This document shows, one piece after another, positions 371-36,364 of a DNA stretch of 64,000 bases. Location: positions 5,603,501 through 5,667,500 of the forward strand of contig NZ_CP029562.1 of assembly GCF_004136315.1 (NCBI RefSeq), read 5' to 3'. Below the pieces are notes generated by a model that searched no databases, was not told the origin of the DNA, and saw only the letters and a list, made by a program, of their open reading frames with translations. The first letter of the stretch is position 1, and each line of letters begins with the position of its first letter. The position numbers were made by a program, and so were the translations under genes. The stretch comes from Mesorhizobium sp. Pch-S. Lineage in GTDB: Bacteria > Pseudomonadota > Alphaproteobacteria > Rhizobiales > Rhizobiaceae.

Positions 371-378
371 AACGAAAA

Positions 379-406
379 CCCCGGCCGGAGCCGGGGTCTT
401 GCTTTA
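379..406. terminator. Bidirectional hairpin terminator
   Basis: A 7-bp perfect GC stem (CCCCGGC / GCCGGGG, 379-385 with 390-396) with loop CGGA is followed by a T-containing tract on the plus strand. On the minus strand a TTTT run follows it. It separates the converging genes ending at 370 and 404. Confidence 0.7.
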
Positions 407-592
407 TTCGTTCACTTCTCGAAGCTTTCTCAATTCAGCTTCGAACGTTCGCTTAAACGCTCTTGAGGCTAACCCCACTGTTTTCCTGGTCGCTTGTTCC
501 AGTACGCGCTTCTGTTGAACTAACGAGTCACTTCGCTGCGATTTCGTGCGATTGCCGGTTACCGCTTCCCGGCGCTCAAGCATTGTTGACAT
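404..592 (-). CDS. Small basic protein downstream of the proteasome-like gene
   Basis: A 62-residue, strongly charged protein rich in Arg, Lys and Glu, probably helical. The ATG at 592 is preferred because GGAGG lies 6 nt upstream, inside the last codons of the preceding gene, with which it overlaps by 17 nt. That overlap implies translational coupling, so it may be a partner or regulator of the proteasome-like protein. No family is recognised. Confidence 0.55.
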   Translation of the reverse strand: MSTMLERREAVTGNRTKSQRSDSLVQQKRVLEQATRKTVGLASRAFKRTFEAELRKLREVNE

Positions 593-1862
593 CGGGTCCT
601 CCAGGATTTGCCTTGCGACTATGCTCATAAAAATACCCATTCACAAAGCGGAGATTTCGATCAGGATTGAAATAGTGCTTGCGTTTGATCCACACAAAAC
701 CATCTCCCTTAGAAATCACGGCCACGTCGATCGCGCCGCCTACCGTTTCCAACTCGCGGGAGACGCGACGTTGTAAAGAGGTCAAACTCACTAGAGATTC
801 CGCTAGGTTAGCGAGTTCGTCTTTTGGCAGGCTCATTGCCATCTCAATAATAGGTGACGCGAAGTACTCGCGGCGATGTCGTTCGTGGCCTTCCCAGAAC
901 GCATGGACGGCAGCTTGAGTTGCATTTTCGATGGCTGGAGCAACTTTGGCCAGATCCTCGTCCGAATGACCAAGTAACTTCGCGGCGTTAACTACGCTGT
1001 TGAGAATCAGTTCGCCAACGCTCTCATGGATTAGCATCGAGTAAGCTGGATCTATGCCTTGCATGAAGCGTTCAACCATGTCGGTTTGAGCGAACGGAAG
1101 AATTACCCCGCTGTCCCGACGTGTCATATCGTGCTTATGCGTTTCCGCAATTTTCAAGCGGCCGCCAAGAATGCCGTCGACGTCGAATGAAATGAGCGAC
1201 GGGAGCAGATCTCGTTCCCCGAAACCGGCAATAACCAGGCCGGTCGCCGCTGGGGATGCCAGCATTCTTCGGATTGATGTCTCGCATAATTTTCGAGCTA
1301 GTGCTTGGTGGCCCAGTGCATGTCGCATCATCCCATTCGAACATGCCGAGTCTAGAGTGCCGGAAATGCGAGCGCTGATTGGTCCCCATTCCGCTTCAGT
1401 CAGAAACTCGGGCGCCGCCTCAAGTTCCGCTATGTACGCTAGGGCGAATTGCTCAAACTGCTTCGCGAACTCTTCTTGGTTCCTTGTCCCTTGGAACGCC
1501 TCTTGGGACACATTGATCAACGACGACTGAGCTATGGCTACAGCTACAGCATCCTCGTCGGATTGACCAAAGGGGAAGAATTCCTTCAGGAATTTTGTGA
1601 AGTTGTCGGCCCAATCGAACACAGTTGGGAAAGAGACGTTTGGCGTCTTTCGTCTATATTCCTTGACGATCGTCTCCCAGGGAAAGCCGATAAATTCAGC
1701 GTTCCCATAAATCATCGCACCGACAGGCTCGGTTTTGGAAAGAGAGAACAGTTTATCGACAGTGTCGTAGGTTTTCTGCCTGCCGCTTTGCGTCAATGTA
1801 ACTTTGCTGTCAGTAGCCAGCGCTACCGCGCTTTTGTTAAGGATAGCGATTTCGGCTGTCAT
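576..1862 (-). CDS. Proteasome-like Ntn threonine hydrolase
   Basis: A 428-residue protein that begins Met-Thr. Removal of Met would expose Thr1, as in HslV and proteasome beta subunits. With Thr1 as residue 1, Asp falls exactly at position 17 (ALATDSKVT). A VDKL motif at about 34-37 matches HslV VKKV, placing Lys36 where catalytic Lys33 is expected, with a three-residue loop insertion. The following YGNAEFIGFPWETI resembles HslV GGTADAFTLFEL. The remaining roughly 350 residues form a largely helical extension absent from HslV. A longer start at 1904 would bury the threonine and is disfavoured; a GGGGGAG tract precedes 1862. It is coupled to the gene at 404-592. Likely a peptidase or amidase; the substrate is unknown. 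Confidence 0.75.
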   Translation of the reverse strand: MTAEIAILNKSAVALATDSKVTLTQSGRQKTYDTVDKLFSLSKTEPVGAMIYGNAEFIGFPWETIVKEYRRKTPNVSFPTVFDWADNFTKFLKEFFPFGQSDEDAVAVAIAQSSLINVSQEAFQGTRNQEEFAKQFEQFALAYIAELEAAPEFLTEAEWGPISARISGTLDSACSNGMMRHALGHQALARKLCETSIRRMLASPAATGLVIAGFGERDLLPSLISFDVDGILGGRLKIAETHKHDMTRRDSGVILPFAQTDMVERFMQGIDPAYSMLIHESVGELILNSVVNAAKLLGHSDEDLAKVAPAIENATQAAVHAFWEGHERHRREYFASPIIEMAMSLPKDELANLAESLVSLTSLQRRVSRELETVGGAIDVAVISKGDGFVWIKRKHYFNPDRNLRFVNGYFYEHSRKANPGGPDVNNA

Positions 1863-2417: not shown

Positions 2418-2639
2418 ATGGCCATAAAGGTCAAGCGGCGCCGGAGTGCGCGAGACGCGACGATTGATCAGCTACGTTCGATCGCTGAAAGCGAAGCCGC
2501 GGCAAACATTGTCATGGCAAAAGTGCAGCAGGAGGCAGAACTGATCGCCCAGCGGATGGAGAAGATCCACGGAGGAGTTTGGAGTGTGGCGATCAATCAT
2601 CGCTCTTGTTTCGTCCTGATCGCCCGGGACGGCGATTGA
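2418..2639 (+). CDS. Hypothetical protein with IHGGxW motif
   Basis: A 73-residue protein: a basic N-terminus (KVKRRRSAR), a helical middle, then a short C-terminal module reading EKIHGGVW ... INHRSCFVLIARD. The same module (EIHGGTW ... VEHGANSEFVLIRP) ends the protein at 43315-43563, so the two are paralogous at the C-terminus. Its 3' end overlaps the convergent repressor gene by 47 bp. Function unknown. Confidence 0.6.
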   Translation: MAIKVKRRRSARDATIDQLRSIAESEAAANIVMAKVQQEAELIAQRMEKIHGGVWSVAINHRSCFVLIARDGD

Positions 2640-3033
2640 TCGCCTCCACCCTTTCGGTGATCAAGTCGACTACCTGATCAATGTGTTCGGCCTTCAGCTT
2701 CAAAACTTGGCCGAGAACCGCCCAAAGTTTTAAGACGACCTCGCTGACGGGCCTCTGCAATGGCTGGCGCATTTCAGGGGCCTGGGGATCGTCGAGATAG
2801 ACCAACTCGCCTTGGCTTAGGGCCCTGGCATCGACGTTCAAAAAGTCTGCGACAGCGAAGAAGTTGTTCGCAGAGATCGAATTCTGGCCGCTTTCCCAAT
2901 TGCCGACCGCGCCGACCGTTGTCCCGATCGCTTCGGCAATCTCACGCGATGACCCAATTTTGCGGTGCTCACGGGCCGCTTTGATCGCGGCACCGATCTT
3001 CACATTCAGAGGATCGCGCTCTTTGGTAGCCAT
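2593..3033 (-). CDS. CI-like phage repressor (HTH, XRE type)
   Basis: An HTH-XRE domain covers about residues 10-65 (SSREIAEAIGTTVGAVGNWE). The C-terminal part (about 90-140) is a short helical region, not a LexA/CI-type S24 peptidase, so RecA-stimulated self-cleavage is not expected. It diverges from a Cro-like gene across an operator-rich spacer, the layout of a lysogeny switch. ATG 3033 is chosen because a -10-like TACTTA abuts the alternative ATG at 3069; a start at 3069 would add 12 residues. Probable maintenance repressor of this prophage. Confidence 0.75.
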   Translation of the reverse strand: MATKERDPLNVKIGAAIKAAREHRKIGSSREIAEAIGTTVGAVGNWESGQNSISANNFFAVADFLNVDARALSQGELVYLDDPQAPEMRQPLQRPVSEVVLKLWAVLGQVLKLKAEHIDQVVDLITERVEAINRRPGRSGRNKSDD

Positions 3034-3062
3034 GAAACGCTTTTCGCAAGCGCTGCTTACAT

Positions 3063-3117
3063 TTTCCATTTAAGTATTGCTTGCAATCTGATTAAAGCTG
3101 TGCTTATAAACTCGGGC
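3063..3117. promoter_or_regulatory. CI/Cro divergent promoter and operators
   Basis: The spacer holds a perfect palindrome ATTGC-TT-GCAAT and flanking TGCTTA half-sites, which look like repressor operators. On the plus strand TTGCAA and TATAAA are separated by 18 bp. TATAAA ends only 7 nt before the cro ATG at 3118, so the cro mRNA may be leaderless or nearly so. On the minus strand TACTTA is the best -10 candidate for the repressor. Confidence 0.55.
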
Positions 3118-6043: not shown

Positions 6044-6210
6044 CGACCTTGGTCATCACCCATCTATTGGCCGTAGCAATCGGCGCTGTCGGGGCCGGGG
6101 CCTATGCGCGCCGCCAGATCGTGAAGATCAAGCGAGACGACCTTTCGTTTCGCGTGGCGCCGGTTGTTCTGCATTCCGTTGAAGACGCTGCGCGTCGGGT
6201 AGGGGCCTGA
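6040..6210 (+). CDS. Small membrane protein, 56 residues
   Basis: The ATG overlaps the upstream TGA (ATGA), so translation is probably coupled. An N-terminal hydrophobic helix (TLVITHLLAVAIGAVGAGAY) is followed by a basic tail. Length and position in the chain of overlapping genes support a real gene. Function unknown. Confidence 0.5.
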   Translation: MTTLVITHLLAVAIGAVGAGAYARRQIVKIKRDDLSFRVAPVVLHSVEDAARRVGA

Positions 6211-20209: not shown

Positions 20210-20635
20210 GTGACGCTCACTGACAAGCAGCAGCGCTTCGTCGCCGAGTACGTCATCGACTTGAACGCCACACAGGCCGCAATCCGGGCTGGATACGCAG
20301 CAAAGACGGCAAATCGCGAAGGGTCGCGGCTGCTGTCAAATGTAGACATCGCAGATGCGATCGCCCGAAAAGCGGCAGAGAAGGCCGCAGCGCTCGATCT
20401 AAGCGCGGAGAGGGTGCTCAAAGGTCTGTTTGAGGAGGCGACCCGTACCGGCGAGGGAAGCTCCCACGGTGCCCGTGTGTCGGCCTGGGGACTACTCGGA
20501 AAATACCATTCGCTGTTCACCGATAAGATCGAGGCGAGCGTTACCGCCGATGTGACAGTGACTGACGCAAGAGGACAGCTTGAATCTCTCATCGCTCGCC
20601 AGCTTGCCGCCGGAGGTAAGAAGCCAGGCGCTTAG
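20210..20635 (+). CDS. terS: Terminase small subunit
   Basis: A 141-residue protein with a GTG start. The N-terminus LTDKQQRFVAEYVIDLNATQ, then AAIRAGYAAKTANREGSRLL, is the terminase_2 signature (HTH that recognises the packaging site). The C-terminal half is helical and oligomerising in the family. It works with the large subunit immediately downstream. Confidence 0.9.
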   Translation: MTLTDKQQRFVAEYVIDLNATQAAIRAGYAAKTANREGSRLLSNVDIADAIARKAAEKAAALDLSAERVLKGLFEEATRTGEGSSHGARVSAWGLLGKYHSLFTDKIEASVTADVTVTDARGQLESLIARQLAAGGKKPGA

Positions 20636-21908
20636 CAGCCTGACCGATCAACAGTGCCGCGAACTTCTGCATGACTGGCGGTTTCTCGCCCGTCCAGAGC
20701 AACTGGAACCGGAAGGTGATTGGCAAACCTGGATGATCCTCGCCGGCCGCGGCTTCGGCAAGACGAGAACCGGCGCGGAGTGGACCCGAGAGCAGGTGAG
20801 GGCCGGTGCTACCAGGCTGCATCTCATCGCTCCGACGGCGTCCGACGCCCGCGATGTCATGGTGGAGGGCGAAAGCGGGTTGCTGGCGGTATGTTGGTCG
20901 GGAGACCGGACTTACGCCGGCGAGCCGATAGGCCGCCCATCCTATGAGCCATCCAAGCGCCGGCTGACGTGGGCCAATGGCGCCATTGCCACCCTGTTCT
21001 CAGCGGAGGAGCCAGAACGTCTTCGCGGTCCTCAGGCCGAAGCAATGTGGTGCGACGAGCTCGCGGCATGGAAGTATCTGCGCGAGACCTGGGACATGGC
21101 CATGTTCGGTCTTCGCCTCGGCGACCGACCGCGGACCTGCATCACCACCACACCGAAGCCGCTGAAGATCCTGCGTGAGATCATGCAGGACAAGCTCACG
21201 GTGGTGACGCGGGGCTCTACCTTCGCGAATTCTGCCAACCTTGCCCCGACCTTCCTCAAGGCGATCAAGGACAAATACGAAGGCACTCGCCTCGGCCGAC
21301 AGGAACTTGAAGCGGAAGTGCTGGAGGAAGCCGAGGGGGCTCTATGGAGCCGCGCCTTGGTCGAGCAGTCCCTGCTTAAGGGCGCGTTGCCCGAAATGAA
21401 GCGGATTGTCGTCGCAGTCGATCCGGCAGTGACTGCCAAAGAGGAAAGTGCGGAGAGTGGCATCATTGCAGCCGGATTGGGGCGAGATGACCGCGGATAC
21501 GTCCTGCAGGATGCATCGGGCCGCATGTCGCCAGGCAAATGGGCGGCAACCGCGGTGAGACTCTACCACGATCTCAAAGCCGACCGGATTGTGGCCGAGG
21601 GCAACCAGGGCGGTGATTTGGTCAAACATGCAATCCACACCATCGATGCCACCGTGCCAGTGACGATCGTCCACGCTTCTCGCGGCAAAGCAGCTCGAGC
21701 CGAACCTGTGGCCGCACTCTACGAACAGGGCAAGGTCAGCCACGTGAAAGGCCTAGCCGATCTCGAAGACCAGATGGTGAATTGGGAACCCCTTTCAGGG
21801 ATGCCTTCTCCCGATCGCCTCGACGCTGCAGTGTGGGCCTTAACTGCGCTGATGCTGACCCAAGTTGTGCCGACCGCGGTTGTCGGCACCTATCAAACCG
21901 CACGGTAG
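20580..21908 (+). CDS. terL: Terminase large subunit
   Basis: A 442-residue protein. Walker A LAGRGFGKTRTGAEW (about 53-67), Walker B MWCDELAAW (about 156-164), and a C-terminal RNase H-like nuclease with VAVDPAVT, EGNQGGD and DRLDAAVWAL. It is the motor and nuclease that packages DNA into the prohead. It starts at TTG 20580 (AGAGGA upstream), overlapping the small subunit by 56 nt. Confidence 0.92.
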   Translation: MNLSSLASLPPEVRSQALSSLTDQQCRELLHDWRFLARPEQLEPEGDWQTWMILAGRGFGKTRTGAEWTREQVRAGATRLHLIAPTASDARDVMVEGESGLLAVCWSGDRTYAGEPIGRPSYEPSKRRLTWANGAIATLFSAEEPERLRGPQAEAMWCDELAAWKYLRETWDMAMFGLRLGDRPRTCITTTPKPLKILREIMQDKLTVVTRGSTFANSANLAPTFLKAIKDKYEGTRLGRQELEAEVLEEAEGALWSRALVEQSLLKGALPEMKRIVVAVDPAVTAKEESAESGIIAAGLGRDDRGYVLQDASGRMSPGKWAATAVRLYHDLKADRIVAEGNQGGDLVKHAIHTIDATVPVTIVHASRGKAARAEPVAALYEQGKVSHVKGLADLEDQMVNWEPLSGMPSPDRLDAAVWALTALMLTQVVPTAVVGTYQTAR

Positions 21909-21910
21909 CC

Positions 21911-23434
21911 ATGGCACTCGAACCAAAGAACGATCCGTCGAACCCATCGGCGGATTACAAGGCTATGGCGCCTGATTGGGCGATGATTGCCGATATCCGC
22001 GCCGGCGCTCGCCGTGTGAAGGAGAAGGGCGAGCTCTACCTGCCTCGGTACGAGAACGAAGCTGTTTCGGCCTACAAGAAACGGCTGGAGGCGACGCCTT
22101 GGCGGCCTGAGTTTGTCGACGCGCTGCGCAATCTGTGCTCGAAGCCTTTCACTAAGGCTGTAGCGCTGCAGGGGACAGTGCCCGACGCGATCAAGGAGAT
22201 TGCTGAGGATATCGACGGGGAGGGCAACGACCTTCACAGCTTCGCCCGGGCTCAGTTCGTAGAAGGCGTGGCAGCCGGCGTGGTCGGCATCTACGTCACC
22301 TATCCAGACAGCGAGCCGGCTAAGACGGTTGCCGAGGAGAAGAAGGCCGGCACGCGCCCCTATTGGGTTCCGCTCCTCGCCGAGAACATCCTCGCTCTCT
22401 ACACGGTCAAGGTGAACGGGCGCGATCTGGTCCAGCATATCCGCCTTCGTGAATGCCATGTCGAGCGCGATGGCTACGCCGAGAAGGAAACGGAGCGGGT
22501 CCGCGTTATCGACATTGCGGCGCATGGCGCTTCGCCGACATGGGAGTTGTTTGAGAAGCAGGTCGACGCGACAACGAGGGATGTCACTTGGGTCTCGGTC
22601 GGCCGCGGCGCGATCACACTCGACCTGATCCCGATCGTCCTGTTCTTCACTGGTGAGCGCTCCGGCATCTATCGAGTGAAGCCGCCGCTGATCGACTTGG
22701 CGGTCATGCAGATGGAGATCTATCGCGCACTGAGCCGCGAGGATGAGATCCTGACCTTCGCCGGATCTCCGATGCTCAAGGCGAAGGGGATGAACCCGCC
22801 TGCGCCGACCACCGCTCCGGTCGTCGTGGATGGCAGGGAACGACTGGTCGAGACACCCGCGCCCCAGATCACCGTCGGGCCGAAGACTGTGCTCTTCGCC
22901 CCGCCAAGCGAAAACAACCAGGCTGATTGGGATTTCATCCAGCCTGATGCAGCCAACATCACAGCGGTATCGGAAAGCGTCGACAACAAGATCGACCACT
23001 TTCGACGGCTCGCGCTTCAGCCAGCCACTCGAAAGTCGGGCAATCTGGTCGCCACGGTATCCGCGATCGACGCCGCCAAGGCGCACAGCGCCGTCGAGGT
23101 CTGGGCAAACGGGCTGAAGGACGTGTTGGAGCAGGCCTTCGTCTTCACCTGCATGTGGATGAAGATCGCGACCACGGTCGAGGTCTCGGTGCATACCGAC
23201 TTCGGCATTGATGCCGGCGGCACCGATGAGACGGGCAATCTGCTCGAAGCCCGGAAGAATGGCGACCTGTCCCAGCGCACCCTGTGGGACGAAATGCAGC
23301 GCCGCGGCACGCTCGGGCCTCAGTTTGATCCTGAAGTGGAAGAGCAGCGCCTGCTCGAAGAAGTGCCCGGCGAAGACAGCCCCGACGATATTGAGGCTGC
23401 AACGACGCCTCGCAAGCCGGCAAACGCGGCCTGA
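21911..23434 (+). CDS. DUF4055 portal-like protein
   Basis: A 507-residue protein. The N-terminal DYKAMAPDWAMIADIRAGAR and KRLEATPWRPEFVDAL patterns and overall length match the DUF4055 family, which takes the portal position in phages with P22-like coats. It follows the terminase and precedes the scaffold and coat genes. Expected to form the dodecameric DNA gate. Confidence 0.8.
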   Translation: MALEPKNDPSNPSADYKAMAPDWAMIADIRAGARRVKEKGELYLPRYENEAVSAYKKRLEATPWRPEFVDALRNLCSKPFTKAVALQGTVPDAIKEIAEDIDGEGNDLHSFARAQFVEGVAAGVVGIYVTYPDSEPAKTVAEEKKAGTRPYWVPLLAENILALYTVKVNGRDLVQHIRLRECHVERDGYAEKETERVRVIDIAAHGASPTWELFEKQVDATTRDVTWVSVGRGAITLDLIPIVLFFTGERSGIYRVKPPLIDLAVMQMEIYRALSREDEILTFAGSPMLKAKGMNPPAPTTAPVVVDGRERLVETPAPQITVGPKTVLFAPPSENNQADWDFIQPDAANITAVSESVDNKIDHFRRLALQPATRKSGNLVATVSAIDAAKAHSAVEVWANGLKDVLEQAFVFTCMWMKIATTVEVSVHTDFGIDAGGTDETGNLLEARKNGDLSQRTLWDEMQRRGTLGPQFDPEVEEQRLLEEVPGEDSPDDIEAATTPRKPANAA

Positions 23435-23531
23435 TCAACACAAGTTTTGGATTTTGCCTGCCCAACGGATGTTTGGCGGGTGTTTCGGCGCGGATGCGCC
23501 ATAGCCGGGCGGATGCCCAGAAAGACCAGCA

Positions 23532-24332
23532 ATGAAACTGAAACTCGTGACTGTCGAAGGGAAGACCTACGCCGAGGTGCAGGACGGCAAGCCCGTCTTT
23601 GTCCATGACGACGGCAAAGAGGTCGCATTCGATGCTGTCGGTACCGTCGCCACGATCACAAGGCTGAATGGCGAGGCCAAGACGCACCGTGAGGCCAAGG
23701 AAGCCGCCGAGACCAAGCTGAAGGCCTTCGAAGGCATCGAGGACGGCGAGGCGGCCCGTGCTGCACTGGAAACGGTCAAGAACCTGGATGCCGGCAAGCT
23801 CATGGAAGCTGGCAAGGTCGAGGAACTGAAGGCCGGTATCAAGAAAGCAGCTGAGGAATCCGTCGCCGCTGCGAACAAGGCCAATGCCGAAGCGCTGGCC
23901 GCTGAGAAGGCGCGTGGTGACAAGCTGGAGCTCGCCCTCAACGGTGAGATGATCGGCGGCAGGTTTGCTCGCTCCCAGTATGTCGGCGACAAGCTCGTCC
24001 TGCCTGGTCCTGCCGCTCAGAAGGTCTTCGGCGATCATTTCAAGATCGAGGATGGCAAGGTCGTGGCGTACGACGCCGCCGGCAACAAGCTGTTCTCTCG
24101 CGCTAAGCCCGGCGAAATCGCCGAGTTCGATGAAGCCATGGAGATCCTGGTCGATGCTTATCCCTACAAGGACAGCATCCTGAAGGGTACCGGCCACAAA
24201 GGCGACGGTTCGCGCGGCAGCCAGGGCAATGGGCAGGGCGGCGCTAAGACCATGTCCCGGCAGGCATTCGATGCGCTCGATCCCGCGTCCAAGTCCGCAA
24301 AGATCAAAGAGGGCTACACCCTCACTGAATAG
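23532..24332 (+). CDS. Scaffold-like protein (DUF6651-like)
   Basis: A 266-residue protein: a short beta-rich N-terminal part, then a very Ala/Lys/Glu-rich helical region (about 50-140), a small globular stretch, and a Gly-rich linker before a basic tail. Position between portal and coat plus a helical, highly charged composition fit an internal scaffold. It should be absent from mature virions. Confidence 0.7.
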   Translation: MKLKLVTVEGKTYAEVQDGKPVFVHDDGKEVAFDAVGTVATITRLNGEAKTHREAKEAAETKLKAFEGIEDGEAARAALETVKNLDAGKLMEAGKVEELKAGIKKAAEESVAAANKANAEALAAEKARGDKLELALNGEMIGGRFARSQYVGDKLVLPGPAAQKVFGDHFKIEDGKVVAYDAAGNKLFSRAKPGEIAEFDEAMEILVDAYPYKDSILKGTGHKGDGSRGSQGNGQGGAKTMSRQAFDALDPASKSAKIKEGYTLTE

Positions 24333-24438
24333 CGTCCCCACGACGCTGTGACTGCCCCACGCGGATGCGGGACGGGGCGACCGGGCTGGATGGCCCAATT
24401 CCCCCAAACATCAATCCCAAATCTGAAAGGTAGCCACC

Positions 24439-25602
24439 ATGGGTAATACTCTGACGGGCCTCGTCCCGACTATCTACAACGCGCTGGACGTGGTTTCGCG
24501 CGAATTGGTCGGGCTCATCCCGGCTGTGACCTCGGACATGACCTATGCGCGCGCCGCAGTTGGTCAGACCGTCATGTCGCCGGTTACCCCGGCTGCAACG
24601 GCCACCGATATCACTCCGGCCGTGACGCCGCCGAACGATGGTGACCAGACCATCGGTAACGTGCCGATGACCATCACCAAAGCTCGCCGTGTCCCGATCC
24701 GCTGGAATGGCGAGGAAAAGCTCGGCCTCGACAACAACGGCGCCAGCTACAACACCATCCTTTCCAACCAGTTCCAGCAGGGCATGCGTACCTTGGTGAA
24801 CGAGGTGGAAGGCGATTTGGCCGCACTGCACACCAAGGCCTCTCGCGCTTACGGTACCCCGGGCACCGCGCCTTTCGGCACCCCTGCTGACCTGAGCGAT
24901 TCCGCAGGCGCTCTTCGCATCCTGGAGGAGAACGGTGCTCAGGGCCTCGACTTCCAGCTTGCCCTTGGCACCGCCGCCATGGCCAATCTGCGCGGCAAGC
25001 AGTCGGTACTGTTCAAGGTGAACGAAGCCGGCCGCGAAGACATGCTGCGAAACGGCATCACCGATCGCCTGCAGAACCTTGCGCTGCGCCAGTCGGCTCA
25101 GATCAAGACCTTCACGGCGGGTACCGGCGCAGCGGCCACCACCAACGCCACGGGCTATGCCGTCGGCGCCACTGCGATCACCCTGGCTTCGGCCGGCACC
25201 GGTACCATCCTCGCGGGCGATGTGATCAGCTTCGCTGGTGATACCAACAAGTACGTTGTAGCCGCAGGGGACACGGATGTGTCCAATGGCGGCGTCATCA
25301 CCATTGCAGCCCCTGGCCTGCAGAAGGCAATCCCGGCTGCGGCCACGGCGATTACGGTGTCTGCAACGGGCGCGCGCAACATGTTCTTCGCTCGCTCTGC
25401 CATCGCTCTGGCCACTCGCGCTCCGGCGCTGCCGCCGCAGGGTGACTCGGCCATCGATCGCATGATCGTGACCGATGCGCTGACCGGCCTGAGCTTCGAA
25501 GTCTCGATGTACGCCCAGTACCGCCAGATGCAGTACGAAGTCGCGCTGGCGTGGGGCTGCGCCGCAATCAAGCCTGAACATATCGGCCTGCTGCTCGGCT
25601 AA
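24439..25602 (+). CDS. Major capsid protein, P22 coat-like
   Basis: A 387-residue protein. The N-terminal TLTGLVPTIYNALDVVSREL and C-terminal DALTGLSFEVSMYAQYRQMQ match the P22 coat family. An Ala/Thr/Gly-rich stretch at about 225-310 is probably an inserted beta domain, as in P22 coat (I-domain). AGG lies upstream and a strong terminator follows the stop codon, fitting very high expression. Confidence 0.88.
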   Translation: MGNTLTGLVPTIYNALDVVSRELVGLIPAVTSDMTYARAAVGQTVMSPVTPAATATDITPAVTPPNDGDQTIGNVPMTITKARRVPIRWNGEEKLGLDNNGASYNTILSNQFQQGMRTLVNEVEGDLAALHTKASRAYGTPGTAPFGTPADLSDSAGALRILEENGAQGLDFQLALGTAAMANLRGKQSVLFKVNEAGREDMLRNGITDRLQNLALRQSAQIKTFTAGTGAAATTNATGYAVGATAITLASAGTGTILAGDVISFAGDTNKYVVAAGDTDVSNGGVITIAAPGLQKAIPAAATAITVSATGARNMFFARSAIALATRAPALPPQGDSAIDRMIVTDALTGLSFEVSMYAQYRQMQYEVALAWGCAAIKPEHIGLLLG

Positions 25603-25616
25603 GCCTTCCGTCATCG

Positions 25617-25650
25617 ACGGGCGCGCTTCGGTGCGCCCGTTCCTCTTTCA
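25617..25650 (+). terminator. Terminator after the coat gene
   Basis: A 10-bp stem (ACGGGCGCGC / GTGCGCCCGT, one G-T pair) with a TTCG tetraloop is followed by a pyrimidine tract (TCCTCTTTC). It lies 15 bp after the coat stop codon and may act as a partial terminator or mRNA stabiliser. Confidence 0.75.
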
Positions 25651-25665
25651 ATCAGGATCAACGAC

Positions 25666-25950
25666 ATGAAAACGATCAAGGTTCAGCCTTGGGGCGAAGA
25701 TCAGGGCGAGTACGTGCTGATCAACGAGGAAGACTTCGACGCCAAGTTCCACGAGCCCTTCGATGAAGGTGCGCAGCCGACCGACGCGCCGAAAATCGAA
25801 CTCGGTACCGACAGCGGCGAGGAGTTCAGCGACGAGCAGCTTCGCGACGCCATCGAAGCAGCTAGCGGTCAGCGTCCCCACCACATGACGGGTCGCGCCA
25901 AGCTGATTGCGCAATTCAACGAACTCAATGCAGAGGCGGCGGCCGAGTAG
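25666..25950 (+). CDS. Small acidic protein with HeH/LEM-like tail
   Basis: A 94-residue acidic protein. The C-terminal 40 residues (EEFSDEQLRDAIEAASGQRP then AKLIAQFNEL) fit an HeH/LEM-type two-helix DNA- or protein-binding motif common in phage head genes. It lies between coat and connector genes and is probably a head accessory protein. Confidence 0.6.
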   Translation: MKTIKVQPWGEDQGEYVLINEEDFDAKFHEPFDEGAQPTDAPKIELGTDSGEEFSDEQLRDAIEAASGQRPHHMTGRAKLIAQFNELNAEAAAE

Positions 25951-25963
25951 GGCCGAGTGAACT

Positions 25964-26488
25964 ATGCTCATCGTCGAGGATGGCTCCGGCCTTGCCAATG
26001 CAGAAAGCTACGTCAGCGTGAGCGATGCCGTGGCGTATGCCGCTGCGCGCGCGCTCACGTTCCCTGCAAGCCCCACCGACAAGGCTGAAGCAGCGCTGCG
26101 CCGTGCAACAGCCTACATCGACAACACCTATCGCACGCGGTTCCCAGGCCAGCGGAAGGAGTTCCGCCTGCAGGCTTTGGAATGGCCTCGCGTCGGCGTT
26201 GTCGACATGAACGGGTTTCCGGTCACGAGCGACGAGATCCCGGTCGAGATCGTCCGGGCCGCTTGTGAAGCAGCGGTACGTGAACTGGCAGCGCCTGGTT
26301 CGCTCACGCCAGACGTAACGCCCGGCAAGGTGAAGAAACGCGCCAAGGTTGGAGACATCGAGGTCGAATATGCGGTGGGTGGCGGTGGCGTTGCGAGCCA
26401 GCAGCCGATCTCGCCGATTATCGACGGGATACTCGCTGCGCTGATCGGCATAGGGCAACCGTTCACAGCTTCGGCGGTGCGCGGATGA
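25964..26488 (+). CDS. Head-tail connector, DnaT-like
   Basis: A 174-residue protein starting LIVEDGSGLANAESYVSVSD, followed by a helical stretch with ALRRATAYIDNTYRTRFPGQ. This is the pattern of the phage proteins often annotated DnaT-like ssDNA-binding; in this position they act as a head-tail adaptor. It overlaps the next gene by 4 nt. Confidence 0.75.
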   Translation: MLIVEDGSGLANAESYVSVSDAVAYAAARALTFPASPTDKAEAALRRATAYIDNTYRTRFPGQRKEFRLQALEWPRVGVVDMNGFPVTSDEIPVEIVRAACEAAVRELAAPGSLTPDVTPGKVKKRAKVGDIEVEYAVGGGGVASQQPISPIIDGILAALIGIGQPFTASAVRG

Positions 26489-26844
26489 CCGGCTTCTACG
26501 AAGAACTCCGCGGCGTGGCCGACGAACTGTTTGGCGAGTTCAAGCAGGGGAGCGTGCAACTCCGCCGCGTCACCACAACGCCGGGCCCGAACGAATGGGA
26601 CCCGCCGACTGAGACGACTGAGACGTGGGAACTGGGCGCAGCGGTGAAGCGTGTCGACCAGCGTTACGAGAATGGCATCTTGATCGTGCAGACCGGCGAC
26701 ATCGTGACGTTTGCCGTGCCGCCAGTGGCGCCGATCCTGAGCGACGGACTCGTCATCGACGGCACTCTTCGGGCGATCACCAGCCTGCGCCCTACGCCGT
26801 CAGCGGGCACTGTAGTGGCCTGGGAGGTGTTCTGTGCCGCCTAA
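26485..26844 (+). CDS. Head-closure-type protein
   Basis: A 119-residue, beta-rich protein (VQLRRVTTTPGPNEWDPPTE ...) of the size and position of head-tail stoppers. It follows the adaptor with a 4-nt overlap. The call is mainly positional. Confidence 0.6.
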   Translation: MTGFYEELRGVADELFGEFKQGSVQLRRVTTTPGPNEWDPPTETTETWELGAAVKRVDQRYENGILIVQTGDIVTFAVPPVAPILSDGLVIDGTLRAITSLRPTPSAGTVVAWEVFCAA

Positions 26845-26946
26845 GTAAGTGTGTAAAAGATGGCTTAGAATAGAGCCGATGATATTGCGGACTCACTTGG
26901 ATTTTGTTTACGTTACTGCGCGGAGAAAATTGCCAAGGGGGATTAG

Positions 26947-27675
26947 ATGTGTCGAGCGCTGGCTATTTGCTTAACTGTGGTAGTCGCTGGGTGTACAACT
27001 GGTGGAGATATGAATGATTTAACTCCGGTTGGGTACACAGCGCTTAACCCGACAAGCACTGGTGTTAAAGTTGGCCACCTTTATTTTGAAGGACCTGGTA
27101 AACGTCCAGCCTTCAAGACGGCAAACGGTAGGCTTTACAGTTCCCTATGCTACATAGATTTTGAAAAGACACCGCCGCTTATCGATATTGGAAAACACGT
27201 AGTTGATGAGGGTGTGAGCGTTTCCAAACTAGATACGAGCGACTCGGGTAACCTTAGCGGTTCCGGGTCAATACCAACTCTGGGCGCTGCAGCGGCCGGC
27301 GCTAGTGCGGGGGCCAAGAAAGGCTACGTTGTCGAGAACTTGCATGTATTCACTCTTGCCGGCGACGGCGACGTAGTGGTGCGCAAATCCATTAAGCCGA
27401 ATTGTCGTGATCAAATCCGAACCCTCAAAAGAGCAAACAAGAACGTTGTTCTCGCAACCGGTGCCACGCGTGCGGAAACGCTCTCTGAAACAAAGAGCTA
27501 CAGCCTGCAAGGGAACATAGGTGGGGAATTCAAGGTCAAGATCGGGAACGAAAAAAAGGCAGCTACCTTTCAAGTGGACACCGGGGAAAAACAAGGCGGA
27601 GGGTTCACACACGCAAAAACCCTGACCAGAAAAAATGTCTATCTTTCAGTTAAGCTAGACCGGTTTCAACAATAG
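26947..27675 (+). CDS. Cargo lipoprotein inserted in the head-tail operon
   Basis: A 242-residue protein with a short signal peptide and lipobox VVVAGC (Cys16), so it is probably an outer-membrane or inner-membrane lipoprotein. The mature part is beta-rich with a Gly/Ala/Ser segment at about 105-125. Base composition is visibly AT-richer than the flanking virion genes, and it interrupts an otherwise tightly packed operon. This fits a recently acquired lysogenic-conversion gene. Possible surface or exclusion function, unproven. Confidence 0.65.
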   Translation: MCRALAICLTVVVAGCTTGGDMNDLTPVGYTALNPTSTGVKVGHLYFEGPGKRPAFKTANGRLYSSLCYIDFEKTPPLIDIGKHVVDEGVSVSKLDTSDSGNLSGSGSIPTLGAAAAGASAGAKKGYVVENLHVFTLAGDGDVVVRKSIKPNCRDQIRTLKRANKNVVLATGATRAETLSETKSYSLQGNIGGEFKVKIGNEKKAATFQVDTGEKQGGGFTHAKTLTRKNVYLSVKLDRFQQ

Positions 27676-27704
27676 CGGGCAAAAGGCCTGCGCATGGCGG
27701 GCTC

Positions 27705-28745
27705 ATGCTCAAACGCTTATCACCTCGCGAGCGCTTCGAACAGCTTGTCGCGACATGGGAGCCGCTGCTTCGCGCCGCGTTCATTGAGGCGATCGACGAC
27801 ATTCGGTCGAACATCGTCTTGCGACGGATTGTAGAGCGGCTGGAACGCGCTGACATTGCCGGTGCAATCCGAGCCCTCAACCTCGAGGAGGCGGCATTCC
27901 GGCCGCTGGAAGAGGCCATCCGGCAGGCATTCAACGGTGGTGGCATTGCTGCGGTCGAGCAGATGCCTCAACTGCGTGAGCCCGATGGGCATCAGGTCGT
28001 AGTACGCTGGGATGCTCGCAACCTGGCAGCCGAGAATTGGCTGCGTGAGCACAGCGCCACGCTGGTCACGAACATCGTCGAGGATCAAAAGGTTGCGATC
28101 CTATCCGCTTTGGAGGAGGGGCTGTCCCGCGGCGATAACCCAACCAAGACAGCGCTGCAGGTCGTCGGACGGGTCAACCGGGTCACAGGGAAGCGCGAGG
28201 GCGGCGTGATCGGGCTCACCACAGCCCAAGCGGAGTATGTCGCCACAGCCCGACAGGAACTGTCCCTCGGTGAGCCCGATCAGCTGAGAAACTACCTATC
28301 GAGGAACCGCAGGGACAAGAGGTACGATCGCACTATCCTTGCGGCAATGAAGACGGGCGAGCCGCTGCCGACCGAGACCATCGATCGGATCACATCGAGG
28401 TACGCTGACGGGCTGTTGAAGCTTCGCGCCGACACGATCGCGTTGCATGAGACATTCGAAGCTCTGAACACCTCCAAAGAGATCGCGTTCCGCCAGCAGA
28501 TCGACAAGGGCAGGGTGCAGGCTCAGAACGTCACCAAGACATGGCGCCACACACCACAAGAGCATCCCCGAGCGCACCATGTGGCGATGAACGGCCAGAA
28601 AGTGCGGTTTGATCAGCCGTTCATGGCGCCGGATGGAACCGCAATCCCATATCCACATGCTCCCGGCGTTCCGGCGCGGCATACTCTCGGATGCAAGTGC
28701 TACTGCGATTTCCGAATTGATTTCGTCGCTGAACTGGTGCGCTGA
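27705..28745 (+). CDS. Minor head protein (phage head morphogenesis)
   Basis: A 346-residue protein. The C-terminal part has the Mu gpF/SPP1 gp7 signature: RADTIALHETFEALN, TWRHTPQEHPRAHHVAMNGQ and the closing Cys pair HTLGCKCYC. It is a minor head component, possibly escorting DNA ejection. It is separated from the other head genes by the lipoprotein cargo. Confidence 0.8.
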   Translation: MLKRLSPRERFEQLVATWEPLLRAAFIEAIDDIRSNIVLRRIVERLERADIAGAIRALNLEEAAFRPLEEAIRQAFNGGGIAAVEQMPQLREPDGHQVVVRWDARNLAAENWLREHSATLVTNIVEDQKVAILSALEEGLSRGDNPTKTALQVVGRVNRVTGKREGGVIGLTTAQAEYVATARQELSLGEPDQLRNYLSRNRRDKRYDRTILAAMKTGEPLPTETIDRITSRYADGLLKLRADTIALHETFEALNTSKEIAFRQQIDKGRVQAQNVTKTWRHTPQEHPRAHHVAMNGQKVRFDQPFMAPDGTAIPYPHAPGVPARHTLGCKCYCDFRIDFVAELVR

Positions 28746-28918
28746 TGGCTGAAATTGAAATCGTGTCGATCGATATCGACAGTCTTGATCTGGACGAGGA
28801 AACCAAGGCGCTTTTCATCTCTTGCCTTCCAAAAGAGCCGGTCGACTGGTCGAAGATACTCACCGAGGAGAGGATAGCTGAGGCGATGATCGCCGCTGAT
28901 CTGGTGAGGGTGCAGTAG
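28745..28918 (+). CDS. Small acidic hypothetical protein
   Basis: A 57-residue acidic protein (EIEIVSIDIDSLDLDEETKA). Its ATG overlaps the preceding TGA and its stop overlaps the next GTG start. The tight packing supports a real virion-module gene. Function unknown. Confidence 0.6.
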   Translation: MAEIEIVSIDIDSLDLDEETKALFISCLPKEPVDWSKILTEERIAEAMIAADLVRVQ

Positions 28919-29367
28919 TGGCCTCGTTCAGCGCGCAAGTTGGAGCATGGGCGGCCAAGGTCGACGGGGCCCTGGAGGCTGTTTTCAAGGAGAGCGCTCA
29001 GGAACTGGTCAACACCATGGATCAGCTTCTCGTGGACATGGTCTACAAGGGGCCGCCGTCTCCAAACTACAACCGAACCGGATTCCTACGGGCTTCGCTG
29101 ATGGCGTCGACTACCGCGATGCCTCAACTGACGCGGGACAATCCTGGTGTACCCGTCCCGGCTGACCTTGGCGACGTGATCTTGGTAATTGCTGGCGCTG
29201 ATCTGGGCGATACCATCTACCTGGGCGTCACCGCCTCCTATGGCGCGATGGTGCACTATGGCGCGAGAGGACAGGCCCCACGTCCGTGGGTCACTCTCGC
29301 CGCGCAACGCTGGACGGCAATCGTTGCGACGAAGGCCTCGGAGGTTAGATCAAGGCTTGGCTTGTAG
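28918..29367 (+). CDS. HK97 gp10-like neck/tail completion protein
   Basis: A 149-residue protein with a GTG start. The pattern NYNRTGFLRASLMAS, then YGAMVHYGARGQAPRPWV, is the HK97 gp10 signature. It is expected at the head-tail joint. Its last 18 bp overlap the convergent gene 29350-29805. Confidence 0.75.
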   Translation: MASFSAQVGAWAAKVDGALEAVFKESAQELVNTMDQLLVDMVYKGPPSPNYNRTGFLRASLMASTTAMPQLTRDNPGVPVPADLGDVILVIAGADLGDTIYLGVTASYGAMVHYGARGQAPRPWVTLAAQRWTAIVATKASEVRSRLGL

Positions 29368-29805
29368 CTCGGCTGCGTTTCCTCGGAGGTATTTCTCGAA
29401 ATGCTCCCGTTGTGATGCTTTACCGTTGCAAACTTTGAGCATTATCGGATTGACGAGCCTAAGCACCTTCCCGATGGTAACCTTGTCGGCCTGGTTGTTC
29501 TTCTTGTTGTGTACGTCAGCCCAAAAAATCCGTTCCCATTTCGTCGCTGAGGCTCCTAATTCGTAATATTCGATGGCGTTGATCGTCGAATTCCTGCTCG
29601 CATCTTTAAACACTGCCACCAACTTGGTTTTTCGACCCGCCGAGTTTTGAGCGAGCAATTCGAAAACTCCACTGTTGGTGTGAGGGCACTTCAGGTCGAA
29701 CGGCTTGAGTTTTTCGGCGGGATCGACCCACTCCTTGGACTCTGCTCGTGCGTTGGTGCCAACGGTAGCAATGGCCACCAACAGAGCCGTGAGAATTTTT
29801 CTCAT
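29350..29805 (-). CDS. Secreted cargo protein (paralogue 1)
   Basis: A 151-residue protein with a Sec signal peptide (KILTALLVAIATVGTNARA, cleavage after ARA). The mature part holds two cysteines that could form a disulfide (LKCPHT and LKVCNG). It aligns through most of its length with 49856-50293: CP-H/T...VFELLAQNSAGR and DKVTIGKVLRLVNP...REHFEKY. Leftward inside the virion operon, so it is probably expressed in the lysogen. Periplasmic function unknown. Confidence 0.7.
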   Translation of the reverse strand: MRKILTALLVAIATVGTNARAESKEWVDPAEKLKPFDLKCPHTNSGVFELLAQNSAGRKTKLVAVFKDASRNSTINAIEYYELGASATKWERIFWADVHNKKNNQADKVTIGKVLRLVNPIMLKVCNGKASQREHFEKYLRGNAAELQAKP

Positions 29806-29870
29806 AATCGCATGCCCCCGAAATCCCGTCCCTAACTCGGGAAATTATCAAACCTCGTAGGTCTCACAAC

Positions 29871-30284
29871 GTGCCATCCATCGAAACATCGATCTGGCTC
29901 GCTCTGAAGGCGAGGGTGGAAGCGCTTGTGCTATCGCCTACGCTCCCCATCGCATGGCCGAACCTGAGCTTCACCAAGCCGGCCACGGGCTATCTCCGCG
30001 TCACCCACGTCTCAAACGTCAACCGGCGGCTGTTTCTCGGATCGACGGACCCGCATCAGCGGCTTGGCCTCCTGCAGGTCGACGTATTCGGCAAGAAAAA
30101 CGAGAACATAGCCGTTGCGGTTGAAGTGGCGGGTAAGGTGGCTGCGCACTTCCCAACTGATCTCCGGATGCGCTTCGGTGACGTCACAGTTCGCGTCACC
30201 ACCGCGCCGACGGTTGCCCAGTCGCTCGATGATGACACGCACGTTATGCTGCCGGTGACCGTGCCCTATGAGTGCTTCGCTTAG
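29871..30284 (+). CDS. Tail terminator-like protein (DUF4128-like)
   Basis: A 137-residue alpha-beta protein with features of the tail terminator family: N-terminal helix (SIWLALKARVEALV), then RLGLLQVDVFGKK and a long helix. It sits just upstream of the tail tube. It should cap the growing tail. Confidence 0.7.
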   Translation: MPSIETSIWLALKARVEALVLSPTLPIAWPNLSFTKPATGYLRVTHVSNVNRRLFLGSTDPHQRLGLLQVDVFGKKNENIAVAVEVAGKVAAHFPTDLRMRFGDVTVRVTTAPTVAQSLDDDTHVMLPVTVPYECFA

Positions 30285-30529
30285 CCTCGGGAGCGGGACT
30301 TCCACCAACAAAAGACACCCCAAATTGTCGTAAGCGCCAGAACCAAACAGGCGGCGAGTAGGACCAAACCGGTGACTGCGAGGCTGCTGCCCCACCCAAT
30401 GAAGGGGGCGTTGCACTGGAAGCCGCCGAACCCGAAGGCGCAGTAGCTGCTGGTTATCTCGTCCATCCAGATCGCCCCCAGCAGGGCGACAGCAAGCAAA
30501 GACAGACTGATGGACGGGAAGCGGCGCAT
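30281..30529 (-). CDS. Small two-TM cargo membrane protein
   Basis: An 82-residue protein with hydrophobic segments at about residues 6-22 and 45-75. ATG 30529 is used; a TTG at 30550 would add seven residues. It is the third cargo gene inserted in the structural operon and is leftward. Function unknown. Confidence 0.5.
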   Translation of the reverse strand: MRRFPSISLSLLAVALLGAIWMDEITSSYCAFGFGGFQCNAPFIGWGSSLAVTGLVLLAACLVLALTTIWGVFCWWKSRSRG

Positions 30530-30633
30530 CTCCCGCTCATAGCACCACAAAGCAGTGCCCGGCCATCAGGACGGCAACTTCACGCCTAACCGCCCTTCGG
30601 CAAGGCAATCCCACAACTTGAAAGGAGACCGCC

Positions 30634-31364
30634 ATGAGCGACTTGTTCGCCGTTGCTGGCGCGAAATTCTACATCGGCGCTGCCGCCATGGCTGCGCCTT
30701 CGACTGATGTTGCGGCGGCGGATTTTGCTGCCGTGACCTGGACTGAAGTTGTCGACTGGACCCAGTGCGGCCAGATCGGCGACACCGCTGCACTCATCAC
30801 GACCCAGGTGATCAGCCGTGGCCGTGACGTGAAGCAGAAGGGCACGCGCAATGCGGGCTCGATGCAGAACGTCTTCGCGATCAACTCCAGCGATCCGGGC
30901 CAAATCGCTCTGATCGCAGCGGAAAAGACCCGCAACAACTATCCCTTCAAGATCCAGTGGGATGACGCACCGGGTGCCGTGCCGTTCGCCGCCACGATCA
31001 CGATCGCGAGCCCGGGTGTCATCACCAAGGTTGCGCACGGCCTGACTGCGGTCGTGAGGTCGTTTTCTCGACCACTGGTGCCCTGCCGACCGGCCTTGTC
31101 GCCGGCACCAAGTACTACGTGAAGACGACGCCCGACGCCGACACCTTCACAGTCTCGGCGACGCTCGGCGGCGCTGCAATCGCCACTACCGGCACCCAGA
31201 GCGGCACCCATACGGTGACACCGACGCCGCTCGGCACAGTGAACTACTGGATCGGTCTCGTGATGTCGGCACAGCAGGCCGGTGGCGGCCCGAACACCGT
31301 GCGCAGCCTCAACGCCAACGTCGAGGTGAACACCAACGTCGTGACCGTCAACCCGACCGTCTGA
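30634..31364 (+). CDS. Major tail tube protein with Ig-like insert and frameshift
   Basis: The gene starts with AGG before ATG 30634. The first 125 residues are tail-tube-like (SDLFAVAGAKFYIG ... VVDWTQCGQIGDTA). A beta-sandwich insert follows (ATITIASPGVITKVAHGL ... SGTHTVTP), then a tube C-terminal strand set (NYWIGLVMSAQQAGGGPNTV ... NVVTVNPTV). The frame breaks near 31050: frame 0 ends at 31122, but the insert and tube C-terminus continue in the -1 frame to 31364. One extra G would give GLTAGREVVFSTTG and restore it. Either a real mutation, a sequencing error or a recoding event. The tube core needs the C-terminal part. Confidence 0.7.
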
Positions 31365-31376
31365 GGATAGCCAAGC

Positions 31377-31733
31377 ATGAGCAAGAAGACACACATCGGC
31401 GCCGGTAATGTCGAGATCGAGCTCGACGGCGAAACCTGCACGCTGAAGCCGTCGTTGCAGGCCTGTCAGGCGCTGTCACGGATGCGAGGCGGCATCAACA
31501 ACACGGTGCGCGCTGTTGGCGATCTCGACTTCGACGCGATGGTCACCGTGATCGGTCTCGGCCTCGGCCTTTCCAGCAAAGAACTCAAAGACTTGCCGGA
31601 GAGAGTTTACGAGACGGGTTTGCCTGAACTCTCTGGTCCGCTGATCCGATATCTCTCCAATGTCGCCAACGGGGGCAAGCCGTTCGACAATGGAGGGTCG
31701 GACAAAGACCAGGGAAACGCGGAGAGCCGCTGA
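31377..31733 (+). CDS. Tail assembly chaperone (gpG-like)
   Basis: A 118-residue protein (VEIELDGETCTLKPSLQACQ ...) located between tail tube and tape measure, the position of lambda gpG. Its frame-0 product ends at 31733. A canonical G GGA AAC slippery heptamer lies five codons before the stop and would give a longer -1 product with the T-like domain. It should coat the tape measure during tail assembly. Confidence 0.8.
   Translation: MSKKTHIGAGNVEIELDGETCTLKPSLQACQALSRMRGGINNTVRAVGDLDFDAMVTVIGLGLGLSSKELKDLPERVYETGLPELSGPLIRYLSNVANGGKPFDNGGSDKDQGNAESR
31712..31718 (+). promoter_or_regulatory. -1 ribosomal frameshift slippery site
   Basis: The heptamer GGGAAAC lies in the exact X XXY YYZ phase of frame 0 (codons GGA at 31713 and AAC at 31716). 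A 4-bp hairpin GCGG-AGAG-CCGC (31719-31730) begins one base later. A -1 slip joins the upstream frame to the frame encoding 31718-31963. Confidence 0.88.
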
Positions 31734-31963
31734 GCCCTGCGGAATACTATGACCATCTGGCCGAGATAGCGCTCGGCTGGATGGGCTGGACCGAAGAGCA
31801 GGCGCTCCGCACCGATGTGAACGCGATTGTCGTAGCCCATGACGGCCGCAAGGCGATGCTCGCTGCCATCTTCGGTGGCGGGGAAGAGGAAGACGTGCCT
31901 CCCGAGCCCGAAAAGCTTCCCGAAATGACGCCGGCTCTTTTCCGGGCAATGTTTGCGAGATGA
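31718..31963 (+). CDS. Tail assembly chaperone extension (gpT-like), -1 frame
   Basis: It has no good start of its own; it is read by -1 frameshifting from the gene at 31377, giving a fusion of about 195 residues. The extension reads RGEPLSPAEYYDHLAEIALG then GWTEEQALRTDVNAIVVAHD, a pattern common to T-like extensions in alphaproteobacterial phages. It stops 3 bp before the tape measure start. An internal ATG at 31781 exists but would lose the PAEYY region. Confidence 0.8.
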   Translation, partial: RGEPLSPAEYYDHLAEIALGWMGWTEEQALRTDVNAIVVAHDGRKAMLAAIFGGGEEEDVPPEPEKLPEMTPALFRAMFAR

Positions 31964-31966
31964 TCC

Positions 31967-34900: not shown

Positions 34901-35020
34901 GGAAAGCGCATGGACATCTGGTTTGAGCAGCAGACCGCCAAGGCGACCTCGCGTCGAGGCAGTGCGGCGAACAAGGCCTTGGCTAGCATGGGCCTCACCC
35001 GGCCAATGAAGGTGCGCTGA
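31967..35020 (+). CDS. Tape measure protein with lysozyme-like domain
   Basis: A 1017-residue protein. The N-terminal 120 residues and later stretches are helical heptads (VKQATGDLDRLTSSSTKADA ...). Hydrophobic segments lie at about 170-190 and a Gly-rich part at about 840-900. Residues about 695-800 contain IDPDIALKVARSEG and FGPFQL, the pattern of a lysozyme/transglycosylase-type domain that could open peptidoglycan during DNA entry. The size predicts a tail length of roughly 150 nm by the usual 1.5 A per residue rule. Confidence 0.85.
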   Translation: MPIADLGISVRSGEVKQATGDLDRLTSSSTKADAAIERLGRSSATANADFGRVSAGVEQANAALTRLVALGEQSNAALSRIASGSVVARDGLRQVAREADNTITRVRAMNDNMAQFRRQNLTYQLFDVGQMAALGQNPAMTLMQQGPQIAQLYAGQGGVNAALRDAGTLAGGLITKLWPVGIAAAAGGLAIRGLQSDIEKATGKTIEFGDAAAGAFRAIKEDITAQLKPVIDDVSPWFSAAWDTVGGGAVTAAETIINSFHAAYVDVEYLWSQFPNMMGSLVTKGLNAMVGGIQTMIQTGATYIDAFLEKINAALEKADALFPGGGYRLGTIGKIDFGPPLPDPYSDSLSKATEERNRRVNEIMTSTPLRDYYRTLRDRVGGDLHFNLPTGGTGSPIPLPNFRGVDDIPGDQEYLQDFQKKNEVRIRQLEDQKNALGLTGAALEAFRVQQEAVNSALSANIELTPEQLELIKKQAAAYGEMAEALAKAKLAKDLAFERDQLGRSDVEQAVAATLKQYGLGEDLNGPEAAIIRSNELLKKQVDLWKDVRKGGMDAYSDIFDLAFDGFDNWQERLSDIAKDMAKNIFDLSVKNPFLNEQYGANLPTMNQTGGIGGFFATMLGMTPNPAINALGTQSVGAMTVNAASVVVMGSIGVGGADGVLNRVFSPANSNGLKASDYAPMSLSGIGSPGSLGSNAPYNVANATSFIKQYASAIGIDPDIALKVARSEGLGAGIWQSNYSKGGFREPSFGPFQLLKGGQGTGFGTGLGNRFMQQTGLDPADPANWQKSTAFALDQAKAGGWGPWYGAKNQGITGFMGIDRSAEKATAALDNLSTGTVDAGKGLNAFGGGMGKLGNALSQFPGAPGGGGGGFLGGLGKMLGGGLNSLFSGTKAFSWLSANPGGSIGLFADGTENAPAGWAWVGEEGPELRKLRAGDVIRSNPRSMEMMANARGIGPSKTEMHFHNAPPVLHQQEEDDGEGGKRMDIWFEQQTAKATSRRGSAANKALASMGLTRPMKVR

Positions 35021-36358: not shown

Positions 36359-36364
36359 GAATTC

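Follow-up and report, generated by a model that had tools for sequence, protein, structure and literature searches.

The window analysed here is a stretch of 64,000 nucleotides (nt) from Mesorhizobium sp. Pch-S (contig NZ_CP029562.1, positions 5,603,501 to 5,667,500 of the forward strand), and coordinates are counted from its first letter unless another locus is named. Its start falls within a prophage, and there, on the minus strand, lies the subject of this report: a unit of two genes followed by a terminator-like hairpin. The first gene encodes a proteasome-like hydrolase of the N-terminal nucleophile (Ntn) type, the second a small basic protein, its putative partner. The enzyme agrees with a family that was already named in 2021; the conserved module that it forms with the partner did not turn up in the open-licence literature searched.

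The locus

576..1862, minus strand: PMI-4-type proteasome-like Ntn hydrolase of 428 amino acids (aa), assigned by phrog_5990 (expectation value, E, 6.6e-96), homologue alignment and predicted fold
404..592, minus strand: cognate small basic partner of 62 aa, net charge +7, with its own Shine-Dalgarno sequence GGAGG
377..397, readable on both strands: terminator-like hairpin directly 3' of the partner gene

The partner open reading frame (ORF) overlaps the 3' end of the enzyme gene by 17 nt, and the GGAGG stands five bases 5' of its ATG. The initial annotation had noticed this small basic protein at the end of the enzyme gene, and its length, overlap and charge are all confirmed. Between positions 300 and 2700 there are seven terminator-like sites, compared with 2.8 +/- 2.1 in shuffled sequences, and the stem at 377-397 is the richest in G-C. 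A segment of 34 bases over the hairpin (369-402) recurs at 88% identity at another place in the genome (G000:C1:2976799-2976832). The partner frame also gave a TPR-S match (E 0.058), which was taken as chance.

The enzyme

The enzyme begins MTAEIAIL, with Met1 followed by Thr2, the putative nucleophile; counted from that threonine as Thr1, Asp17 and Lys36 correspond to D18 and K37 of the ORF. Across 251 distinct aligned homologues, D18 and K37 are present in 251/251, and T2 in all 246 that have a residue at this position. The conservation of D18 is partly selected, since the patterns by which loci were fetched included the AADS motif; the 120 database proteins were gathered by shared five-residue words and not by pattern. 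The initial annotation had named these three residues and had held that their absence from homologues, or a fold unrelated to the Ntn hydrolases, would speak against its assignment: the residues are kept, and the fold predicted is that of a proteasome beta subunit. The stretch YGNAEFIGF (residues 52-60) bears a loose likeness to GGTADAF.

The predicted structure places a proteasome-like core between residues 2 and 396, made up of about 2-75, 200-270 and 345-396. Two helical blocks are inserted into it: the first (~81-198) between helix 62-72 and strand 207-213, the second (272-344) between helices 260-268 and 347-367. Strands 28-40 and 47-53 have no helix between them, and past the core there is only a short helix at 404-416. 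The helical C-terminal extension of about 350 residues proposed earlier is thus mistaken, the extra helices lying inside the core. Against a viral structure library, searched with the first model only, the best match is a siphovirus protein named 'Proteasome beta type-2 subunit' (E 0.049); HslV and connectase are absent among the structure matches listed, which was not counted as evidence against either. The predicted model has the proteasome-beta fold with an N-terminal nucleophile arrangement, and together with the conserved Thr, Asp and Lys it supports the earlier reading of a proteasome-like Ntn hydrolase with a threonine nucleophile.

PHROGs places the enzyme in phrog_5990, whose function is given there as unknown, and Pfam, NCBIfam and PADLOC return nothing above cut-off, with no match to an HslV or proteasome model in Pfam or NCBIfam. 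Residues 111-207, in the first inserted block, resemble NNH1, the helical Pfam domain known from NACHT proteins of bacteria, below its cut-off (E 1.4e-5; 25.7 bits, cut-off 27); the match is carried by P0001 alone among 120 listed enzyme relatives and was judged a probable resemblance between helices. The family is large: of 8000 candidates that were scored, 4787 reach E <= 0.001. In the relatives at L159, L194, L231, L181/L184 and L252 the gene appears broken by a frame change or inner stop.

In 2021, Fuchs, Alva and Lupas introduced 22 new families of proteasome-like proteins (PMC8665760), and the one with the largest number of sequences is PMI-4 (proteasome homologue with multiple insertions 4). 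For it they describe two insertion sites and no propeptide, with members in many bacterial phyla, Euryarchaeota and phages, argue that insertions of such a kind may prevent ring assembly, and report neither a genomic context hinting at function nor a partner (PMC8665760). Compared by published features, and not by sequence with the reference HDY66466.1, the modelled window enzyme fits PMI-4 in its structure (equivalents of Thr1, Asp17 and Lys33, a long insertion after H1/H2 at the pore-loop site, and an H3-H4 insertion) and in its distribution (many bacterial phyla, archaea of the Methanosarcinales, phages). Enzymes of this type are thus not undescribed, and Table 1 of that paper already marks PMI-4 in phages (PMC8665760).

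The partner gene

Small ORFs of this kind stand next to such enzymes in many bacteria and archaea and in viruses of both. Partners were first counted over 168 loci, of which 154 have an identifiable enzyme ORF, in 147 cases with sufficient DNA downstream of it. Without dereplication, an ORF of 35-100 residues starting at most 60 nt from the enzyme stop is found in 144 of the 147 (median length 58 residues), compared with 390 of 907 ends (43%) of other long ORFs at the same loci under the same loose rule. When an ATG and a Shine-Dalgarno-like site are required, the counts are 105/147 enzyme ends and 70/907 other ends, again not dereplicated. The ten closest partner pairs differ by 0.11-0.23 non-synonymous and 0.42-0.78 synonymous changes per site, and by this measure the partner is evolving under purifying selection. 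Within the largest partner cluster (39 members), similarity between partners follows similarity between enzymes (r 0.70, a value reached in 0 of 2000 permutations), and mean identity is 0.23 for the partner and 0.42 for the enzyme, which argues that the pair is inherited together and that the partner changes faster.

A search of 5.8 billion proteins yielded 30 clusters that match the window-type partner (E <= 0.001, of 140 candidates), all of 56-74 residues. The exact size of the longest contig is shared with an enzyme relative by 17 of the 30 (21 of the 120 enzyme relatives compared), and one partner relative and one enzyme relative have neighbouring locus tags. The small-ORF excess, the purifying selection and the 30 database clusters together argue that the frame is not a chance one and that the partner, judged from sequence, is a real protein; the coupling of a small partner to the enzyme, put forward in the initial annotation, is supported.

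Partners carry a net positive charge at 119 of the 144 loci. A short aromatic motif (YFP, FNP, DFF or YFNIP) is retained in each of the four largest clusters and is missing from that of the window. No credible natural fusion of enzyme and partner was found among 251 enzymes with the main-partner-type profile, and in 297 genomes the window-type profile found, besides its own partner, one weak match with an internal stop (E 0.008) and hence no stand-alone partner, this profile being so narrow that it also misses the partners of other enzyme-bearing genomes. In the open-licence literature, preprints not included, no paper was found by title or abstract that links the enzyme family to a small partner or to phage defence.

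The C-terminal tail

The C-terminal tail of the window enzyme reads WIKRKHYF (residues 391-398). Dereplication at 90% leaves 167 enzymes, 161 of them with downstream DNA, for which a partner was defined as an ORF of 35-110 residues starting between -70 and +60. Where the tail pattern [RHK][KR]x[YF]F is present, a partner ORF follows in 144 of 151 cases; where it is absent, in 0 of 10 (Fisher p 8e-12), and all 144 partner-bearing enzymes of this set have the tail. A first, narrower pattern had given 134/140 and 10/21 and was widened after its misses had been read, so the 0/10 is partly post hoc. Twelve loci were left out of the test because the pattern was missing or the sequence was short or broken, among them the tail-less L176, whose sole candidate partner ORF (start -80) falls outside the rule. 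Of the seven enzymes that bear the tail but have no partner by this rule, four (L187, L205, L090 and L170) are followed by candidate ORFs slightly beyond its limits, and three (L022, L212 and L148) have no such ORF nearby. The tail-less relatives with no partner ORF by the rule are L172, L174, L175, L177-L180, L242, L245 and L247, several of which start MTSE.

Distribution

Enzyme and partner form a mobile two-gene module with a patchy distribution in chromosomes. Among 50,697 phage records the enzyme is present in 13. Seven of these are Streptococcus phage satellites; in six of them the gene ends at most 0.2 kb before the end of the record, and in the other, Javan421, the distance is 3.1 kb. 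Of 72,556 plasmids, 10 also carry the enzyme, one of them by a partial match, as do 173 viral-contig stretches. In genome sets that overlap one another, it is found in 15/289 genomes of the class (E <= 1e-10), 8/398 of the phylum and 8/297 of the order (both E <= 1e-20), and it is absent from all eight other genomes of the same genus among those listed. Locus titles name Bacillus, Bacteroidales, Planctomycetota, Nostocales, Actinomycetes, Methanosarcinales and others.

The prophage and the gene neighbourhood

The integrase next to a tRNA gene, the repressor-like gene and the siphovirus-like late genes set out below, together with an IMG/VR contig of 66,884 bases that carries the same enzyme gene at 100% identity, indicate that the module is prophage-borne and lies in the early or lysogeny region, as the initial annotation had it.

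L003:8051-9118, ~9-10 kb left of the window start: integrase, adjoining a tRNA-Pro gene
2593..3069, minus strand: XRE/repressor-like transcription regulator (phrog_8, phrog_4), upstream of the module on the same strand
20580..39676, plus strand: siphovirus-like late region
20580-21908, plus strand: terminase
21782-23434, plus strand: portal
24439-25602, plus strand: major head protein
31967-35020, plus strand: tape measure
36365-39676, plus strand: tail fibre J

The tRNA-Pro gene beside the integrase (L003:7852-7928) is a candidate attachment site; a tRNA-Arg gene lies far to the right, at 55712-55788 of the window. A phage protein of 783 residues resembling DNA methyltransferases is encoded at 12654-15005 (plus strand).

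Around 42 genome loci, 413 of 419 neighbouring ORFs were compared with Pfam and 267 of the 413 with PADLOC. No third gene recurs widely in the Pfam comparison, the commonest family being HTH_3 with four members in one set, and no AAA+ unfoldase family recurs among those with at least two members. PADLOC assigns neighbours to 57 and 120 families in two sets, the first 25 of each having 1-3 members apiece, counts that come without control loci; restriction-modification, Mads, DISARM methylase, PbeA, viperin-like, Dnd/Ssp and candidate PDC families are listed.

In L186, L191, L194, L187 and L145, an operon of multi-ubiquitin, ThiF and DUF6527 genes lies within ~2 kb of the module. The first three are related Rhizobium plasmids that share one island, L194 being the one with a frame-broken enzyme gene. 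L187, a Mesorhizobium plasmid, and L145, from another genome, share a block (4361-9437 and 4412-9353, respectively) in which the multi-ubiquitin, ThiF and DUF6527 genes are on one strand and a gene of unknown function and the enzyme gene run divergently on the other. The operon is near the enzyme in four of the seven plasmids inspected, out of ten that bear the enzyme; DUF6527 also occurs near the module in L138, and one scan set holds ThiF at 3/129 and DUF6527 at 2/129 neighbours. A general link to ubiquitin-like systems was rejected as a rule: among 297 genomes of the order, DUF6527 is found in 27 and the enzyme in 8, and the two co-occur in a single genome, on different contigs. In L016, L071 and L124 a transposase-like ORF (290-304 aa, with ..DEIWS in two of the three printed starts) lies 206-230 nt past the enzyme stop.

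Proposed function of the module

A threonine in the penultimate position makes a protein a good substrate for methionine aminopeptidase. In the mechanism considered here, the cell's own methionine aminopeptidase would remove Met1 and expose Thr2, which with Asp18 and Lys37 would form the catalytic centre of a peptidase. The helical insertions would sit on the pore side and the ring-ring side of the beta fold, and a plain double ring of the HslV or proteasome kind is therefore unlikely. The partner, small, mostly basic and fast-evolving, would be translated from a start near the enzyme stop and would most likely bind the enzyme encoded beside it, at the C-terminal RKHYF tail or close to it, to complete or steer the active complex. 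No ATPase is encoded in the unit, and the protein cut by the enzyme is therefore probably either a specific one or one that has already unfolded. The carriers are prophages, phage satellites, plasmids and scattered chromosomes, so the likeliest role would be to help the element or its host against competing phages and other elements. The suggestions of the initial annotation that the enzyme is self-compartmentalising and that it acts on proteins of the host or of superinfecting phages are not supported. We give an even chance to this reading as a whole: a mobile accessory module of a PMI-4-type hydrolase and a partner that binds and steers it, probably against competing elements.

Several observations weigh against it. 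(i) The loose rule also lets chance ORFs through, 43% of the ends of other genes satisfying it, and part of the 144 partners may be chance, and over all 179 partner pairs the median ratio of non-synonymous to synonymous change (pN/pS) is only 0.51, with synonymous sites saturated. (ii) No more than five of 14 records of phages and plasmids have an annotated small gene immediately following the enzyme (Porphyromonas and Providencia phages, the Streptococcus satellites Javan103 and Javan468, and an Enterococcus plasmid); of the other nine, two stop at the enzyme's end and seven have no annotated small gene, several having an unannotated ORF. (iii) The 144 partners are so divergent, falling into 64 clusters, that common descent of them all is not established; by their sequences it is possible. 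(iv) The link between tail and partner comes down to two tail changes on the tree and two independent pairs, with which significance is unreachable, and is thus suggestive and not independent evidence. (v) That enzyme and partner bind each other is something we infer, and their charges are uncorrelated across loci (r -0.12). (vi) By the scans of neighbouring genes, the module does not in general lie in defence islands, and housekeeping families are common around it; in PADLOC-DB 2.0.0, neither the enzyme nor the 78-aa frame containing the partner matches any family. (vii) Integrases, sought with four queries, lie within the fetched DNA of 1/69 viral and 2/72 genome loci, a count judged uninformative.

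A bolder version, which we regard as rather unlikely, would make the unit an uncharacterised proteasome-type immune module of phages, satellites and plasmids, in which the partner sets assembly or targets and which on some plasmids, together with multi-ubiquitin, E1 (ThiF) and DUF6527 proteins, would be a bacterial counterpart of the ubiquitin-proteasome system.

Of the rival explanations, a toxin-antitoxin-like pair survives best, at a probability that is low but not negligible. A harmful protease would be silenced by the partner and released upon phage infection or loss of the element, as would suit a two-gene unit on mobile elements with a patchy distribution, a fast-evolving partner and, in the window, an acidic enzyme (net charge -11) beside a basic partner (+7). 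However, the ten tail-less relatives persist with no partner ORF by the rule, and the enzyme gene comes first and the partner second, whereas in most toxin-antitoxin pairs the antitoxin gene precedes.

It is doubtful that the enzyme is a connectase-like transferase or processing enzyme with the partner as its substrate, cut or joined at the conserved aromatic motif. The fold is capable of such chemistry, as connectase, a monomeric protein ligase, shows (Fuchs et al. 2021, PMC8665760), and the four largest partner clusters do keep a motif; yet this varies between clusters and is missing from the window's own, and PMI-4 does not have the S3/S4 insertion that is the signature element of connectase.

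Slightly more doubtful still is an HslV-like self-compartmentalising protease, the view of the initial annotation, for which the partner is a minor cap or unrelated. The beta fold and catalytic residues agree with it, but the large insertions lie at pore and ring-ring sites, where they are expected to hinder ring assembly (PMC8665760), no AAA+ unfoldase family recurs among the neighbour families with at least two members, and the partner is conserved. A phage life-cycle protease acting in head maturation, lysis or induction control, and not an accessory gene, is very improbable: the enzyme adjoins lysis genes in records of Providencia, Stenotrophomonas and Streptococcus phages, has portal/adaptor genes on one side and neck/tail genes on the other in a Porphyromonas phage, and is near a repressor in the window, but its position thus varies, only 13 phage records hold it, and it is also found on plasmids and in archaeal and bacterial chromosomes.

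The conserved partner gene offers a direct handle on PMI-4, in that the pair, and not the enzyme alone, can be expressed. Should assembly or the choice of target be under the partner's control, this would represent a new, ATPase-free way to regulate an enzyme of the proteasome fold. As the module is spread on satellites and prophages, protein cleavage by a relative of the proteasome would then join the means by which phages and hosts contend.

Comparison with known systems

The closest known relative is PMI-4, with which the window enzyme shares the predicted proteasome-like core, the catalytic equivalents, both insertion sites, the missing propeptide and the occurrence in phages and the same broad phyla; the conserved small partner gene and the C-terminal RKxYF tail are described here and not in the 2021 paper. 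Compared with the beta subunit of the 20S proteasome, the window enzyme is twice as long through its inserted helices, has no alpha subunit seen beside it and is accompanied by a 62-aa partner. HslV has the same catalytic residues of the Ntn core in a compact subunit free of insertions, whereas the window enzyme has two large ones. HslV is encoded with the AAA+ unfoldase HslU, its working partner; the unit described here consists of two genes followed by the terminator-like hairpin. Anbu is likewise compact (~235 residues) and ends in a long C-terminal H5 coiled coil, in contrast with the inserted blocks and short helix 404-416 predicted here. Connectase is also proteasome-like with insertions that change assembly, but it is a ligase with a two-helix S3/S4 insertion (its signature; PMC8665760) and no H1/H2, whereas the window enzyme is predicted to have helix 62-72 and no S3/S4 insertion.
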